64,000 nt of DNA from Streptomyces sp. DT2A-34. Lineage in GTDB: Bacteria > Actinomycetota > Actinomycetes > Streptomycetales > Streptomycetaceae. The stretch lies in the NCBI RefSeq assembly GCF_030499515.1, contig NZ_JASTWJ010000001.1, forward strand, positions 5,188,001 to 5,252,000, given 5' to 3'. Position numbers and translations under genes: made by a program. This document shows, in pieces, positions 37,804-43,522 of this stretch. The first letter of the stretch is position 1. The number at the start of each line of letters is the position of its first letter. The notes beneath the pieces were generated by a model, which was given only the letters and a program-made list of their open reading frames with translations, made no database searches and was not told the DNA's origin.

Positions 37804-38085
37804 CCCGCGCTGCCGCCACCTGCCTACACCGTCGAAGCCACTCATTCCCATGCGCCAGTAGTTATCTTGCGCCACGGGGAGCTGTTCACCCTGCCACTGT
37901 TGGGCGGCCCTGGCACTGCTCCTGCCCGGGCTGCCGTACGCCGTCGCCGATGCGCGAGGAAGGGAGAGCTCCGCGCCCGGCGTCGACCAGGACTTGTCCG
38001 AGTGATCTGAGACCGCCCTGTGGGCGCGTACGCGAACCGATGCGCGTACTCGGCCGGCCGCTCCCCGAGCCGGACCGCCGCTTCC
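37804..38085. other. Convergent intergenic region, nothing recognised
   Basis: About 280 bp between the convergent SDR and methyltransferase genes. GC content drops in places (for example near 37860), but I see no gene, strong hairpin or repeat. Confidence 0.5.
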
Positions 38086-39264
38086 TCAGCCGAGGAGTGG
38101 CGGAACTGGATTCCCCGGATCGTCAAGCCAGACGGTCTCGGCCTCGGGGGTCACCGTGAGCCCGAAGCGATCGAATCCGGGGCACCCCTGAGCTTCCCAC
38201 CATTGGTGCGCCTTTTCGACTTCGTCCCACAGCCTCCGGGGTCCCGACTGCACTACTTCGAATTCCACCCGGTCCTTCTCGAAATCGGCCGTTGCCCATG
38301 AGGTGACCGCCGTGTCCCGAAGCCACAGTGTGTAAGAGCCGTCCTTGTACGACTCCGTCCAAGGGAACGCGCCGCCGACCTGGGCACCGATAGCGAACAT
38401 GACGTGCCAGTCGCCCACGTCGTCGGGGGAAAGGGACGTGGTGGACGTGGCGCCGTCGGCGGGCCACGGCTTGCCCTTCAGGTACTCGCGGACGTGCTTG
38501 CGTTCGGTGCGCTGGGTGCGGAGCCGCATGAACGCAGAGGAACCGAGGAACTTGCCCGAGGCAGTCCCGTCCCCCTTGGCGGTGAGCCGCACAACTGCCT
38601 CTCCGCCGTACGTCGGTCCCCACGGCGCCACGATCACACCGCCGGGCCTCATCTGCTCAACCCATGCGTAAGGCATCCTGCCGATCGAGCAAGTGGCCAT
38701 CAGCCGGTCGTACGGCGTGCCCTGCGCGTATCCGTCCGCTCCATCACCAACGACGACCGTGGGAGCGAATCCGGCGCCCTGGAGCCGCTTACGGGCCGCT
38801 GCGGCAGTGGCTTGATCCACCTCGACTGTTGTGACATTCGCGGGGCCGACGCGGGCGGACAGCAGTGCGGCATTCCACCCTGTGCCGGTGCCGATCTCCA
38901 AGACCCGATGGCCATCGCTGACGCTCAGGGCGGCGAGCATCGAAAAGACCATGGTCGGCATCGAGTTGGAGGAGGACGGGATCCTGCCCTTCCCCGGACC
39001 GACGTAGGCTCCGTCGTCCCACTGAGTCGTGATCGGGGCGTCTGTGTAAACGGCCTCCCACCACGCGCGGGGTTCCTCGGAGCGAATGACCCGGTTCTTC
39101 TGACGGTTGCCGCCGGCTGTCCCTGGCCAGATCATTTCGGGCACGAACATATGTCTCGGTGCCCTGCGGAACGCGGGAAGCCAGTCGGACGACAGCGCGC
39201 CCTTCTGCATGAGCGCGGAGGCCAGCCGCTCGGGGCCGGCCTCCGCTTCGTACGGCTCGGTCAT
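38086..39264 (-). CDS. PIMT-like O-methyltransferase of a RiPP-type locus
   Basis: 392 residues, longer than housekeeping L-isoaspartate methyltransferase (about 210). Residues 1-215 form the PIMT-like AdoMet domain: MQKGALSSDWLPAFRRAPRH then MFVPEMIW, the TQWDDGAYVGPG loop, SSSNSMPTMVFSMLAALS, SAM motif VLEIGTGTGWNAALL, and GPYDRLMATCSIG-like motif. About 175 extra C-terminal residues (from about 218) carry a domain typical of RiPP-associated PIMTs. The ATG follows the stop of the Asp/Gly-rich peptide gene without a gap (TAG ATG), so the two are made together. In lanthipeptide, graspetide and imiditide systems such enzymes methylate Asp, which then closes to aspartimide. Confidence 0.85.
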   Translation of the reverse strand: MTEPYEAEAGPERLASALMQKGALSSDWLPAFRRAPRHMFVPEMIWPGTAGGNRQKNRVIRSEEPRAWWEAVYTDAPITTQWDDGAYVGPGKGRIPSSSNSMPTMVFSMLAALSVSDGHRVLEIGTGTGWNAALLSARVGPANVTTVEVDQATAAAARKRLQGAGFAPTVVVGDGADGYAQGTPYDRLMATCSIGRMPYAWVEQMRPGGVIVAPWGPTYGGEAVVRLTAKGDGTASGKFLGSSAFMRLRTQRTERKHVREYLKGKPWPADGATSTTSLSPDDVGDWHVMFAIGAQVGGAFPWTESYKDGSYTLWLRDTAVTSWATADFEKDRVEFEVVQSGPRRLWDEVEKAHQWWEAQGCPGFDRFGLTVTPEAETVWLDDPGNPVPPLLG

Positions 39265-39399
39265 CTAGCGGCCGTCCGCCGGACCCTGGCCGTCGTTGGT
39301 GTTGCCGCCCTCGTCCGACCCACCCCCACCGTGCTTGTTCCCGCTGTCGCTGTCGTCCTGAGGGTTGCCGTCCGCCATCTTGAGCCACCAGCTGGGCAC
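39265..39399 (-). CDS. Asp/Gly-rich 44-residue putative RiPP precursor (imiditide-like)
   Basis: GTG start at 39399 with AGGAGG 7 nt upstream, a near-perfect ribosome-binding site. The peptide begins MPSWWLKMADGNPQDDSDSG, continues through a GGGG run, and ends NTNDGQGPADGR. It has two Trp near the N-terminus, then seven Asp, one Glu and many Gly; three Asp-Gly pairs (residues 10-11, 36-37, 42-43) are the sites most prone to succinimide formation. Its stop codon touches the methyltransferase start. No other RiPP enzyme (ATP-grasp, LanM/LanKC, radical SAM) is in the window. A longer frame upstream exists but has no ribosome-binding site. Confidence 0.75.
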   Translation of the reverse strand: MPSWWLKMADGNPQDDSDSGNKHGGGGSDEGGNTNDGQGPADGR

Positions 39400-39579
39400 T
39401 TGGTTACCTCCTGATTGTCGATGGTGTCTGTCGGCCGTCCCGCTGTCCGCGAGACGGTGTCTGGCGAGAACACTCACCCGTGATGCAGCGGCGCGCCTGT
39501 GTGCGGGGCTGCTTGCTGTCGTCGAGGCGCCAGGCGTCGTCGCCGATACGGGCCAGGGTCACGGAGCCCTCGAGATGCT

Positions 39580-39777
39580 TCAGCGACCGGGGCGCCTGCC
39601 GCTTTCGGTGCAGCGCCAGCACCGGCAGGGCGGCCATGCAGTGGTGAGCAGGGGCGGCAGGTCATCCGTGGTGAGCACGGTCTGCTCAGGCCCCCACGTT
39701 CGACCGGAGTCACGAGAGACGCGCATGGTCATCAAGGGTCGGTCGGCAAAGAGACCTGAGCCCGATTCCCTGCTCAT
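39580..39777 (-). CDS. Small conserved Streptomyces protein (MRVSRDxGRTW type)
   Basis: 65 residues; ATG 39777 overlaps the stop of the preceding gene (ATGA). The core MTMRVSRDSGRTWGPEQTV, TTDDLPPLLTTAWPPCRCWR with the final CRC/C cysteines recurs in small Streptomyces proteins that accompany XRE regulators. The SRDSGRTW part resembles an Asp-box of sialidase propellers, but a single one cannot form a blade enzyme. Function unknown. Confidence 0.55.
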   Translation of the reverse strand: MSRESGSGLFADRPLMTMRVSRDSGRTWGPEQTVLTTDDLPPLLTTAWPPCRCWRCTESGRRPGR

Positions 39778-39965
39778 GACGTGTGTGCCGCTGCGTGATG
39801 CTTGCGCAGCTCCACATTCACGTCAGATACGGCACTGTAGTCACCGCTGGAGCGGGCGTTCTGTCTGGCAACGGCCAGTGGCAGACACGCGGCGCAGCCA
39901 GGTACGGCGGAGGGCTCGGTAGGCAGCTCGGTCAGGCCGTAATCCTGCGGCTTCAGTGTCTCCAT
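39774..39965 (-). CDS. Small conserved protein with CxxC and C-terminal His residues
   Basis: 63 residues from ATG 39965 with GGAGG 7 nt upstream. METLKPQDYGLTELPTEP is followed by GCAACLPLAVARQNARSSGD, YSAVSDVNVELRKHHAAAH. The CxxC plus the DxNVxxRxH...H arrangement suggests a small zinc-binding fold. Coupled to the next gene. Downstream of an XRE regulator on the same strand. Confidence 0.65.
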   Translation of the reverse strand: METLKPQDYGLTELPTEPSAVPGCAACLPLAVARQNARSSGDYSAVSDVNVELRKHHAAAHTS

Positions 39966-40058
39966 GCGGTGCCTCCACGGCCTATCGGCTCTCGGTTCAA
40001 CGACCGTATGGAGACAGCGGGTTGCCGATCCACGGACTTGCATGAGCTTGCGCCGCGA

Positions 40059-40901
40059 TCACCCGAGAGCGTCGATGGCGGCGGTGATGAGCGATCTGGC
40101 CTGTGTGCCGTACACGGCGAGGGCGGACAGCTCGGCGAATGCCTTCGTGTACTCCGCGATCTCGCCGGGTTGGGTGACGGTCAGGTGCGCGGAGACGAGT
40201 TCCACGTTCACCTGTGTGTCGTCGTACATGGTGAACGACTCGACGGGCCACCCGGCACCGCGCAGTGTGCCGAGAGGGATGATGCCCAGGCTGACGGAAG
40301 GGAGCGAGGCGACAGAGATCAAGTGGCCGAGGGCTCCGGCCATGGTGTCGTGGTCGCCTATGACGGTGCGCAGTACCCACTCCTCGACGAGCATGGCGAA
40401 ACGGTGGTCGCCGGTGTGCAGGATGCGCTGCCGGTCCATGCGCACGGCCACGGCATCGTCGATGTCGTCGGGTACGTCCCGGAGGTGGGCCACGGTGCTC
40501 AGTACGGCTCGGGTGTAGGCGGCCGACTGGAGCAGGCCGGGAATCACCCAGGATTGGTAGACGCGGAAGCGGCGGGTGCGCTCGAAGAGTGGCGCCACAG
40601 ATTGTTGGACGCGTCGAAGGCCCGCGCGCTCCATGCGCCGCCATTGGATGTAGGCGCCCTCTATTCCACGTGCCGTGGCGATCAGGTCGGCGGTCTGGTC
40701 CTGGGCACCGCAGAGGGTCGTGTACGTCCGAATGTCCGCGTCGGACGGGGACGTGCGCCCGTTCTCAAGTCGCGAGCACTTCGACTCGTGCCAGTCGGCA
40801 CGCCTGGCCAGCTCTCGCGCCGTAAGGCCGGCGTCCACGCGGATCTCGCGGAGACGCCGGCCGAGGGCCTGCCGTGCCTGCTGAACACTGGATGAAGTCA
40901 C
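40059..40901 (-). CDS. XRE-family regulator with DUF5753 domain
   Basis: 280 residues. N-terminal HTH_31 (residues 10-66: LGRRLREIRVDAGLTARELA, RRADWHESKCSRLENGRTSP) and C-terminal DUF5753 (about 90-275: QSWVIPGLLQSAAYTRAVL, RQRILHTGDHRFAMLVEEWV, SVSLGIIPLG, ESFTMYDD). Streptomyces carry dozens of these; several (WhiJ, AbaA-type) influence development and antibiotics. Upstream on the same strand are the DUF6879 and partner genes. Confidence 0.9.
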   Translation of the reverse strand: MTSSSVQQARQALGRRLREIRVDAGLTARELARRADWHESKCSRLENGRTSPSDADIRTYTTLCGAQDQTADLIATARGIEGAYIQWRRMERAGLRRVQQSVAPLFERTRRFRVYQSWVIPGLLQSAAYTRAVLSTVAHLRDVPDDIDDAVAVRMDRQRILHTGDHRFAMLVEEWVLRTVIGDHDTMAGALGHLISVASLPSVSLGIIPLGTLRGAGWPVESFTMYDDTQVNVELVSAHLTVTQPGEIAEYTKAFAELSALAVYGTQARSLITAAIDALG

Positions 40902-40915
40902 ACCGGGATTGTGGA

Positions 40916-41437
40916 TCAGGCGAGCCTGTAGTCCTCGTGTGGCACTGCCAGGGCCCAGACGGCCTCGAAGGCATCAGCACACAGCTTCACGACGCCCGGA
41001 TCGTCAGTGAACTCCTCGTCGTCCGGAGCGAGTTCGCCATCACCGGCGAAGTGGTTGAAGACGACGGAGCTGTCGTCGAAGAGCCAGAAGTCGTTGCCGG
41101 GCAGGGCCAGCCCGGATGCGTGACGGCGAGGCAGCCAGCGCACTTGCTCGCCTGCCTCCACGTTGGGGCCGGTCAGGTGGTGCTCGAACCGGATGTAGTC
41201 CGATACAGGCTCCGACACGATGCGGGCCCTGCGTACCTCGACCCCTTGGGCTACGAGGTCGGCGACGAGCCGCAGCCACGGCCGACGCTCCGGGTCGCTC
41301 TCCGCGGGATCATTACGGACGCCGTTCTGCCAGGCTGCGAATCGAGGGTCCGAGCGCATGTACCCGTCGCGCATCTCCAGATGGACAGCGGAACGGGTGC
41401 AGCGCCGCAGTCGGTCCTCAAGAGTCGGCACGGCCAC
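40916..41437 (-). CDS. DUF6879 protein
   Basis: 173 residues, all-alpha/beta domain commonly encoded next to XRE/DUF5753 regulators: AVHLEMRDGYMRSDPRFAAW, RPWLRLVADLVAQGVEVRRARI, VSEPVSDYIRFEH, GNDFWLFDDSSVVFNHF. It probably works with the XRE protein 14 bp downstream; molecular function is unknown. Its start overlaps the preceding small gene by 20 nt. Confidence 0.82.
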   Translation of the reverse strand: MAVPTLEDRLRRCTRSAVHLEMRDGYMRSDPRFAAWQNGVRNDPAESDPERRPWLRLVADLVAQGVEVRRARIVSEPVSDYIRFEHHLTGPNVEAGEQVRWLPRRHASGLALPGNDFWLFDDSSVVFNHFAGDGELAPDDEEFTDDPGVVKLCADAFEAVWALAVPHEDYRLA

Positions 41438-41645
41438 CGTCTTTCACCTCCGGGAAGAACTGCACCATGCGCTTCGGGATCTCGATCACGTCCTCGTGGC
41501 CCGGAAGGTCCAGCTGCGAACGCCGAGCCTCGTCGTCCACCTTCCAGCCTTGCACCAGGTAGGTGCCCTTCTCGTCGTCGAGGTAGATGGTGGGCGACTT
41601 GCCTTCCGGGCTCTCGGGATCCTGGCCAAGTTTGATCAGAGCCAT
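41418..41645 (-). CDS. Small acidic partner protein
   Basis: 75 residues from ATG 41645 with AGGGAGG upstream. It reads MALIKLGQDPESPEGKSPTI, YLDDEKGTYLVQGWKVDDEA, then VIEIPKRMVQFFPEV. Recurrent upstream of DUF6879 genes in Streptomyces as I recall. Acidic and beta-rich; may act as small partner of the XRE/DUF6879 set in the way DUF397 proteins do. Confidence 0.7.
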   Translation of the reverse strand: MALIKLGQDPESPEGKSPTIYLDDEKGTYLVQGWKVDDEARRSQLDLPGHEDVIEIPKRMVQFFPEVKDGGRADS

Positions 41646-41734
41646 CGCTGCCTCCCTTGTCGTTGGGCATCCGTGCTCGATCTTGTGCCCAACGTCGAAC
41701 GGAGGCCAGGAACTTGCGAGAACTTGCGCGCGGA

Positions 41735-41917
41735 TTACCGCTTCGCGGTCATCGCGTGTGAGAGGAAGCCTGCCCACGCGGTGGGCCGGAAGGTGAGGTG
41801 GGAGCCGGTCGGGTTCTTGGAGTCGCGGATGTGCATGGTGGTGGGGGTGCTGGCTATCTCGACGCAGTTGGCGGCTTCGGCGCTGTATGTGGACCTCTGC
41901 CAGGTCAGTTCGGGCAT
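41735..41917 (-). CDS. DUF397 protein
   Basis: 60 residues, complete DUF397: WQRSTYSAEAANCVEIASTP, HIRDSKNPTGSHLTF, WAGFL. Small partner protein of XRE/DUF5753 regulators (WhiJ/AbaA type). Located 10 bp downstream of such a regulator gene on the same strand. Confidence 0.92.
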   Translation of the reverse strand: MPELTWQRSTYSAEAANCVEIASTPTTMHIRDSKNPTGSHLTFRPTAWAGFLSHAMTAKR

Positions 41918-41927
41918 GGTGGGTTCC

Positions 41928-42779
41928 TCAGAGCTCGGCGGCGATGCGGTGGATCAGGTCTCGGGATTCGGGCTCGGGAAGAGCGCGGGACTCCATGCGG
42001 TCCAGTACGGAGCGGTAGCGGTCCAACTGAGCCTCGGCATCCAGGAACTCGCAGCCATGGTCGGTGTCCAGGACCACGGTGTCGAGCTGTGGGACAGGGC
42101 CGCTCGCGCATGTGATGGGCTGGCCCGACGCGGGGAAGCCGGTCTGGCCGAAAGGCAGCACCAGCAGGGTGACTGTCGGCTGCTCGCTCATCTCCAGTAG
42201 GTACCGCAGCTGGGCGCGGGCGATGTCCGCGCCGCCGAAGCCCATGCGCAGGGCTGCCTCATGGACGATGGCTGTGTAGGGGGTCGGAGTGCCCTCGAAC
42301 AGGACGGCCTGGCGCTTCACGCGGTAGGAGACGCGGTGCTCGATTTCGTACGGACGTAGAGGCGGAACGGCTTCCCGCATAGTGGCGCGGGCGTGCTCCG
42401 AGGTCTGGAGCAGTCCCGGCATGTGCACGGTGACGGCTACGCGGATCGCCGTGGCGTGGTATTCGAGTTCCGCCAGATCGAGGAGTCCCGATGGGAGGTT
42501 GTCGCGGTACTCCTCCCACCAACCCCGAGTGCGGGCGCCCGTCATGCCGGCGAGGGCGTCGACGTAAGCCTCCTCGGCGCAGCTGTAGTTGCGCGCCAGC
42601 GTGCGTACGCGGTCGGCGCTCACTGCGTACCGCCCGGCCTCGATGTTGCTGATCCGAGCCTGCGGTGCGCTCAGGAGCCCGGCGGCTGCGGTCGACGTCA
42701 GGCCCGCGCGCTCGCGGAGTTTACGCAGCTCGGCGCCGAGGCGCTGCTGGCGCAGGGTGGTGATGAGGGCGGGAGACAT
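41928..42779 (-). CDS. XRE-family regulator with DUF5753 domain (WhiJ/AbaA type)
   Basis: 283 residues. HTH at residues 13-70 (LGAELRKLRERAGLTSTAAA, GLLSAPQARISNIEAGRY) and DUF5753 at about 95-280 (MPGLLQTSEHARATMREAVP, RQAVLFEGTPTPYTAIVHEA, TVTLLVLPFGQTGFPA, VVLDTDHGCEFLDAEAQLDR). Forms a set with the DUF397 gene downstream and the divergent HATPase gene, the layout of whiJ-like modules. A possible operator lies in the divergent region. Confidence 0.9.
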   Translation of the reverse strand: MSPALITTLRQQRLGAELRKLRERAGLTSTAAAGLLSAPQARISNIEAGRYAVSADRVRTLARNYSCAEEAYVDALAGMTGARTRGWWEEYRDNLPSGLLDLAELEYHATAIRVAVTVHMPGLLQTSEHARATMREAVPPLRPYEIEHRVSYRVKRQAVLFEGTPTPYTAIVHEAALRMGFGGADIARAQLRYLLEMSEQPTVTLLVLPFGQTGFPASGQPITCASGPVPQLDTVVLDTDHGCEFLDAEAQLDRYRSVLDRMESRALPEPESRDLIHRIAAEL

Positions 42780-42847
42780 GTCGTGTCGTTTCTCTCCTCA
42801 GCGCGGGCGTGCAGCGTCACTCACACGGGTGGCTATTGGTAGATCTT

Positions 42848-42881
42848 CGTGGATTCGATGGAATACCTTCCAATCTCCACG
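42848..42881. promoter_or_regulatory. Nested inverted repeat in the divergent XRE/HATPase region
   Basis: Outer arms CGTGGA / TCCACG and inner arms TGGAA / TTCCA around TACC, with slightly unequal spacing (5 versus 3 nt). It lies 69 bp upstream of the XRE start. Candidate binding site of the XRE regulator. Confidence 0.45.
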
Positions 42882-43016
42882 CTACGTTGTGCGTGCTGGC
42901 AGCTCAACTCCCCCCGCCCATGAGCCGGAAGCGCACCACCCCAGGCAATGCCACCGCCCGGCGCGGCAGTTGAGCGAGCTCAGACTCCCTTCCTTGCGAG
43001 ACTCCCGGAGGTTTCC

Positions 43017-43459
43017 ATGCGCACCGTATCCCCGCCCGACACCTGGGTGTACGCCCTCCGCCTCCCCCACGACCCCCGCGCGGCACGGGTCGCACGTATG
43101 ACCGTACGGTCGGTGCTCGCCAGCCACGGCAGGCCCGAAGCCCTCGACGCCGTTGAGCTGTTGACGTCCGAAATGGTGACGAACACCTACCTGCACACCA
43201 ACGGCCCCGCATCCCTCCGCCTGACCGCCCTTGCCGACGGACGTCGCGCGTCGGGGTCTGGGACAGCCACCCCCGTATTCCCGCACCCTTCGGCCGACCG
43301 CCCCACGACCACGTCCCGCCCGCCCCGCCGGATGCCGAGGGTGGTCGCGGCCTGCGCCTCGTCCAGGAATACGCCGACTGCTGGGGCGGAGTGTCCCTCG
43401 GTGACGGCACCTTCGACCGGCGGGCCGGGAAGCTGCTCTGGTTCGAGACGGGCAAGTGA
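43017..43459 (+). pseudogene. HATPase_c anti-sigma-like ATP-binding protein, frameshifted
   Basis: ATG 43017 with GGAGG. Frame 1 gives the N-terminal half with the N-box (DAVELLTSEMVTNTYLHTNG). At 43245-43246 one base is missing: DGR is followed by CG instead of a full Leu codon, and the homology continues in another frame with RVGVWDSHP (G1 box), EGGRGLRLVQEYADCWGG (G2) and KLLWFETGK to the TGA at 43459. Restoring one base gives a normal protein of about 147 residues of the RsbW/SpoIIAB-like GHKL kinases that accompany XRE/DUF397 modules. Either a recent inactivation or a sequence error. Confidence 0.82.
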
Positions 43460-43522
43460 GCGTGGGACCCTTCGCATCCGTACGTAGCAGCGAGGTGGCA
43501 CGGACGACGACGGAGAAGTGGC

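Follow-up and report, generated by a model that had tools for sequence, protein, structure and literature searches.

The locus analyzed here raises the question of what is encoded by a 44-codon open reading frame (ORF) lying directly ahead of a gene for a PIMT-type O-methyltransferase (PAMT): a precursor that the enzyme modifies, a partner of the neighboring regulators, or a peptide that is incidental to the enzyme. To answer it, we combined profile searches, structure prediction and comparative genomic analyses of a 64,000-nucleotide stretch of Streptomyces sp. DT2A-34 DNA (hereafter, the window) and of related loci in other genomes. The features of the locus are listed in Table 1.

Table 1. 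Features of the peptide-methyltransferase locus and its surroundings, in window coordinates.
Feature	Position	Strand	Basis
Island between SDR gene and CopC gene (edges approximate)	37804..43522	.	Flank spacing in relatives; G+C
PIMT-type O-methyltransferase (PAMT) of 392 residues; C-terminal domain, WxxxGxP motif (WEAQGCP)	38086..39264	-	PF01135, TIGR04188, AF2
Precursor peptide gene, 44 codons + TAG, GTG start	39265..39399	-	Sequence reading; similar peptide upstream in 26/26 enzyme-found clade loci; 22 protein matches
Asp36 codon, likeliest modified Asp (Asn/Ser-Asp-Gly-x-x-Pro)	39292..39294	-	Alignment; predicted site
Asp15-Asp16 codons (Gln-Asp-Asp-Ser), second conserved acidic site	39352..39357	-	Alignment
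Shine-Dalgarno AGGAGG, 7-nt spacer to GTG	39407..39412	-	Read from sequence
XRE HTH + DUF5753 regulator of 280 residues, upstream of the peptide	40059..40901	-	HTH_31 58.4 bits, DUF5753 112.9 bits
DUF6879 protein	40916..41437	-	195.9 bits; cluster in 9/27 loci (L010 and L079 denote one locus)
119-aa protein without a family assignment	41418..41777	-	Cluster c5 in 4/27 loci
DUF397 small protein	41735..41917	-	72.4 bits
Second XRE HTH + DUF5753 regulator	41928..42779	-	DUF5753 158.6 bits

Architecture of the peptide-enzyme pair

The peptide ORF starts with a GTG at 39399-39397 and stops with a TAG at 39267-39265 of the minus strand, and the very next base, 39264, opens the ATG of the methyltransferase gene. 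An AGGAGG site, a 44-residue peptide and a TAG abutting the start of a 392-residue enzyme had been described in an earlier note, and the sequence bears this description out. The same note called the two products fused in translation; this is apt insofar as translational coupling is likely, and wrong as to a literal fusion, since a stop codon separates the ORFs. From this junction we infer that precursor and enzyme are carried on one message and are translationally coupled. A promoter scan and a terminator scan returned 0 and 0 predictions.

The encoded peptide (VPSWWLKMADGNPQDDSDSGNKHGGGGSDEGGNTNDGQGPADGR) is acidic and rich in Gly and Asp, and 3 of its 44 residues are Pro. It contains Asp-Gly pairs at residues 10-11, 36-37 and 42-43, a GGGG run at residues 24-27 and two N-terminal Trp residues (4-5), all of them as previously claimed. 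It has neither a Cys residue nor a zinc-ribbon motif, and a Pfam scan assigned it to no family at E <= 1, hence no DUF397 domain.

The methyltransferase scored 90.8 bits against PF01135 and 330.9 bits against TIGR04188, the latter below the cut-off of 380 for that family. The AF2 model (pLDDT mostly > 90) presents a PIMT fold followed by a C-terminal domain, with 1DL5 as a full-length structural match, so that profile matches and predicted fold together confirm the earlier identification of a PIMT homologue with an additional C-terminal domain. The WxxxGxP motif occurs in 34 of the 39 enzymes of the clade defined below. An AF2 model of a read-through fusion of peptide and enzyme yielded no docked pose (peptide pLDDT 31-42). 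We also considered whether the charges of enzyme segment 245-275 complement those of the precursor: the window clade has the more basic segment (p = 6e-5, 39 versus 14 rows), and this was set aside because the rows are related and the mean total enzyme charges are nearly equal (-11.6 versus -11.9).

Distribution and conservation of the pair

A protein search with the precursor gave 22 related sequences, including one at E = 7; those with a named host come from Streptomyces or Kitasatospora and are annotated as hypothetical proteins. A peptide search of 392 genomes of the genus (E <= 1e-4) located the peptide at 32 places in 30 genomes, and the enzyme adjoined it at 32/32 of these places. When loci were found by the enzyme alone, a matching peptide lay upstream of all 26 enzymes of the clade, these being 24 places at >= 54% identity in 150 genomes together with loci L011 and L013. 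We therefore rule out a chance ORF, given the conservation of the peptide and this two-way pairing, and the imiditide-like layout proposed earlier, in which the precursor lies directly beside a PAMT gene, is upheld. The expectation that homologous enzymes would not lack such an upstream ORF holds within the clade (26/26 paired) and does not always hold outside it, where two enzymes that are 44-45% identical to that of the window (L110 and L112) are unpaired. One of the 26 loci, L033 (G012:C1:8345378-8349166), encodes a shortened enzyme without about its first 88 residues and is absent from the tree described below; its peptide lies just before the remainder of the enzyme, apparently in the same reading frame.

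The clade set used for the tree comprises 39 loci, 14 of which came from the peptide search, where the peptide is present by construction, and were excluded from the 26. In 37 of 38 loci, the peptide stop falls between -10 and +4 nt from the start of the enzyme gene, the starts being approximate because they were projected from that of the window enzyme; the distance is -66 in L124, and L129, the precursor of which was identified by eye, was unscored. Some precursors are shorter: only the C-terminal half is present in L125, one of the 26 loci found by the enzyme, and in a peptide of Streptomyces pini (P0142) two Gly-Asn repeats flank an internal gap, with QDDSDSGN and TNDG retained.

The peptide core of the window clade reads QDDSDSGNKHGGGG. 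Over 31 loci, those left after dropping enzymes >= 95% identical, the 24-codon core has pS 0.470, pN 0.056 and pN/pS 0.12, a value biased towards conservation in that the loci were picked by the core pattern. The enzymes of the same 31 loci have pS 0.560, pN 0.257 and pN/pS 0.46, and the mean identity between pairs of loci is 95% in the core versus 62% in the enzyme. This calculation skipped 25 of the 57 peptide loci, seven of them in the window clade (L089, L125, L127, L128, L129, L130, and L131), and its input left out three loci without a recognized peptide. Judged from these values, the core is under strong purifying selection and is more conserved than its own enzyme.

To place the enzyme, we built a quick maximum-likelihood tree from 62 enzyme sequences, with the graspetide PAMT of the same genome (L003) as the outgroup. 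The window enzyme falls in a clade of 38 A-labelled rows plus L129 (SH-aLRT 98; here the window clade), whose sister clade (SH-aLRT 99) consists of 17 rows, namely 15 loci with Pro-rich type I precursors together with L112 and P0179. The last of these is a Streptomyces sparsogenes PAMT that is 44% identical to the window enzyme; it shares its species with SpaM, without identity to SpaM being implied. The L112 locus (G078:C98) encodes a PAMT that is 45% identical, and has upstream of it a small ubiquitin-like protein (MoaD/ThiS-like by eye) and no recognized precursor.

The outgroup locus L003 (G000:C1:7045438-7048782) is a graspetide-type pair in which the PAMT gene closely follows a GRASP_SAV_5884 ATP-grasp gene. 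Besides it, the genome has two more ATP-grasp genes, at 0.16 and 9.30 Mb, and the nearest GRASP_SAV_5884 gene lies 1.8 Mb from the pair. BLAST searches with two ATP-grasp queries from this genome matched 2 of 60 loci, L097 and L110, both outside the window clade, and 0 of the 39 clade loci, some of which are short. In L097 (G101:C2:88463-101602), a Pro-rich, type I-like precursor and a PAMT share the 13-kb locus with an ATP-grasp gene whose identity to the L003 one is 65%.

The pair also occurs on a linear plasmid (L159, NZ_CP108097.1:223640-236803), in the order HTH, small protein, peptide, enzyme. A tblastn search of plasmids with the peptide gave no match although this copy carries it, probably because the BLAST low-complexity filter hides the peptide. 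The plasmid pair lies a few genes from one annotated enediyne antibiotic chromoprotein. A search for the letters of the core in the full text of papers gave no match.

Regulators and the variable island around the pair

The neighbor families comprise XRE, DUF6879, DUF397, SDR, CopC, cupin, GNAT and penicillin amidase. No recognized peptide exporter or leader protease was found among the window neighbors scanned. The earlier remark that no other maturation enzyme is present also stands for recognized RiPP maturases other than those of the lanthipeptide and lasso families.

We searched the upstream regions for XRE regulators with an HMM trained on 11 regulators from ten clade loci, scoring only loci with >= 2.5 kb of upstream sequence. 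Of 35 clade loci, 26 had an XRE HTH gene no more than 2.5 kb upstream, or 16 of 25 when the loci used for training were left out, near-copies (L011/L077, L090/L117 and L091/L092/L115) being counted separately. The total of 26/35 is made up of 25/33 plus L125 (positive) and L129 (negative), which the tree moved to the window clade from the Pro-rich set where a crude pattern had put them. The corresponding figure for controls was 2.5% of random positions, deriving from 3 HTH genes in 20 random 19.9-kb stretches from ten genomes. Outside the clade, 6 of 17 loci with a peptide and none of the 3 without a recognized peptide had a match. Pfam scans, run on the misses alone and not on the control stretches, added HTH or DUF5753 proteins for another seven loci of the clade, with two scoring just short of the HTH_31 cut-off.

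In several loci an HTH-DUF5753 gene precedes the peptide on the same strand. The upstream regulators vary overall, being HTH-DUF5753, HTH-TPR or HTH proteins in which no further domain was found, and lie on either strand. The association is strong when measured against random positions, and hitch-hiking on shared islands may contribute to it. The words regulator, XRE and helix-turn-helix are absent from the main text of the pamtide paper and of the aspartimide review.

The pair and its regulators occupy an apparent island. The SDR gene was found at E <= 1e-60 in 10 of the 31 genomes searched, that of the window included. The gap from this gene to the CopC gene is about 5.7 kb in the window, 97-154 bp in three relatives (G011, G016, and G017) and 7.7 kb in G007; in G003, 52 kb of one contig separate the two genes, and the remaining genomes with the SDR gene have no nearby CopC match. 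G+C content in 400-bp bins is 64.5-69.5% within the island and 69.5-74.5% outside it.

The G007 island (L155, G007:C1:418000-428500) is related to that of the window: it encodes HTH-DUF5753 and, as recognized by eye, a DUF397-like protein and small ORFs, and it has no match to about 38086-39478, the segment with enzyme and peptide. The pair can therefore be present or absent within a regulator island. For this reason, and since 9 of the 35 clade loci have no HMM match, the tie to the regulators is not obligatory. A 412-aa transposase-like ORF was also recognized by eye in the G007 island. In the window, an ORF on the plus strand (42948-43487) has a HATPase/anti-sigma-like first half and a second half that appears out of register, again by eye, and has no Pfam match.

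Predicted chemistry and role of the peptide

We aligned 62 peptide rows (42 distinct C-terminal 33-mers) and scored each window residue among the 61 other peptides. Asp36-Gly37 stands out as the conserved Asp-Gly pair for which such an alignment had been suggested (Asp36 in 58, Gly37 in 59), and Pro40 is kept in 57 and Asp42 in 51. Asp15 (59) and Asp16 (60) are conserved as well as Asp36. Sister-clade precursors mostly carry Pro-Asp-Gly at a similar distance from the C-terminus, and L128, L129 and L131, all of the window clade, retain an Asp close to this position and have lost the Gly. Asp36 is most likely the modified residue: it belongs to an Asp-Gly pair, its distance from the C-terminus nearly equals that of the sister-clade Pro-Asp-Gly, and it is kept in the short forms L125 and P0142.

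The anatomy of the locus makes it a probable member of the type I pamtides/imiditides, such as SpaA-SpaM of S. sparsogenes and NmaA-NmaM of Nonomuraea maritima, with the Asp chemistry being predicted. Shared features are a Gly/Asp-rich precursor of about 45 residues that adjoins the PAMT, a PAMT C-terminal domain of the 1DL5 kind with WxxxGxP, and a conserved Asp near Gly and Pro. SpaM and NmaM are reported to modify linear precursors (PMC10787088; PMC13001092). Three features of the window pair, which lies in a separate sister clade, do not fit the usual picture. Its precursor is Pro-poor and acidic, whereas imiditide precursors are described in a review as Pro/Lys-rich and positively charged, a typical and not a defining trait: Pro accounts for 4.5% of the last 36 residues, the mean net charge of 37 clade peptides is -5.2, and the 14 Pro-rich comparison peptides, with a mean of -2.5, are likewise not positive. 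Its core is near-invariant between species and more conserved than the enzyme. Finally, XRE genes often lie upstream of window-clade pairs, as they also do at some Pro-rich loci.

Taken together, the locus is likely to be a biosynthetic pair of the type I pamtide/imiditide kind, from a divergent sub-clade, with Asp36 as the modified residue. The PAMT would bind the unfolded acidic core and then methyl-esterify one Asp, most likely Asp36 of Asn-Asp-Gly; the ester would cyclize on the Gly nitrogen to an aspartimide which, by analogy with the work on SpaM, NmaM, FcaM and SsfM, would open mainly to isoAsp. The near-invariant core, the lack of a recognized exporter or protease among the scanned window neighbors and the frequent upstream XRE gene suggest an action of the product within the producing cell, perhaps, more speculatively, as a ligand or partner of the XRE regulator.

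A different reading gives the peptide a regulatory function: it would be the partner of the adjacent XRE protein, an intracellular ligand in a DUF397-like role, with Asp methylation or isomerization as a switch and no secreted product. Streptomyces XRE-DUF397 pairs (Scr1/Scr2 and others), which consist of an HTH-DUF5753 regulator and a small partner gene (PMC10364602; PMC6262351), are a comparable system, and one such pair sits in the window island; the window peptide, in contrast, is no DUF397 member and is accompanied by a methyltransferase. The excess of upstream XRE genes over the random controls, the loci in which an HTH-DUF5753 gene and then the peptide follow on one strand, and the stronger conservation of the core than of the enzyme all argue for this reading. 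Yet the regulators differ in make and strand, the G007-related island retains regulators without the pair, and XRE matches are sparser outside the clade (6/17 and 0/3); moreover, XRE-rich islands could gather both as cargo, for which random positions are no control. We regard it as possible but doubtful. That the forms of Asp36 (Asp, methyl ester, aspartimide and isoAsp) are themselves the signal, the modified peptide binding or releasing the upstream XRE protein in a gene switch and not an antibiotic, we consider unlikely; if it were so, imiditide-type chemistry would serve as a gene switch in place of a secreted antibiotic.

The enzyme might also be a repair PIMT for damaged proteins with an incidental peptide, as its PF01135 domain and PIMT fold would allow. 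This is very improbable: all 26 clade enzymes are paired with a peptide under strong purifying selection, the C-terminal domain and WxxxGxP are those of RiPP-linked PAMTs, the patchy presence (peptide in 30/392 genomes) is unlike that of a housekeeping gene, and the genome holds 15 other PF01135 matches, many of them weak. Equally improbable, in our judgment, is a decayed graspetide (graspimiditide) locus that has lost its ATP-grasp gene. The family nearest to the enzyme, TIGR04188, takes its name from ATP-grasp peptide systems, the genome contains the graspetide-type pair L003, and L097, outside the clade, has an ATP-grasp gene within 13 kb of a Pro-rich precursor; but no ATP-grasp match was obtained in the 39 clade loci (some short), the peptide is kept nearly unchanged, and the L003 PAMT, the outgroup of the tree, branches outside.

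With the type I pamtide/imiditide reading preferred, the class itself is already known, having been named recently, and what is new is a hint, open to testing, that the product may serve regulation within the cell. A near-constant product made by enzymes of 62% mean identity, with frequent XRE genes nearby, makes the peptide worth testing not only for antibiotic activity but also for binding to a regulator. The published recognition model would not transfer unchanged to a precursor that is acidic and poor in Pro, and the sub-clade supplies a series of such precursors for probing a charge-based model of substrate recognition.

Two further groups resemble the window pair in part. Group 13 graspetides (graspimiditides) have a homologous TIGR04188 PAMT, and differ in that the window locus has no ATP-grasp gene. 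DUF397/DUF5753 genes may accompany graspetide groups 11 and 13 (PMC13097080), and HTH-DUF5753 is listed with other genes associated with ATP-grasp loci, for the most part in actinobacteria (PMC8939145). Type II pamtides/cysimiditides (FcaA-FcaM) share the two-gene layout and a precursor Asp-Gly, whereas the window precursor is without their two CxxCxGxG motifs. In Frankia sp. CIT1 (L014:5897-6025), where the enzyme is 39% identical to that of the window, a four-Cys type II pamtide precursor overlaps the start of the PAMT gene.
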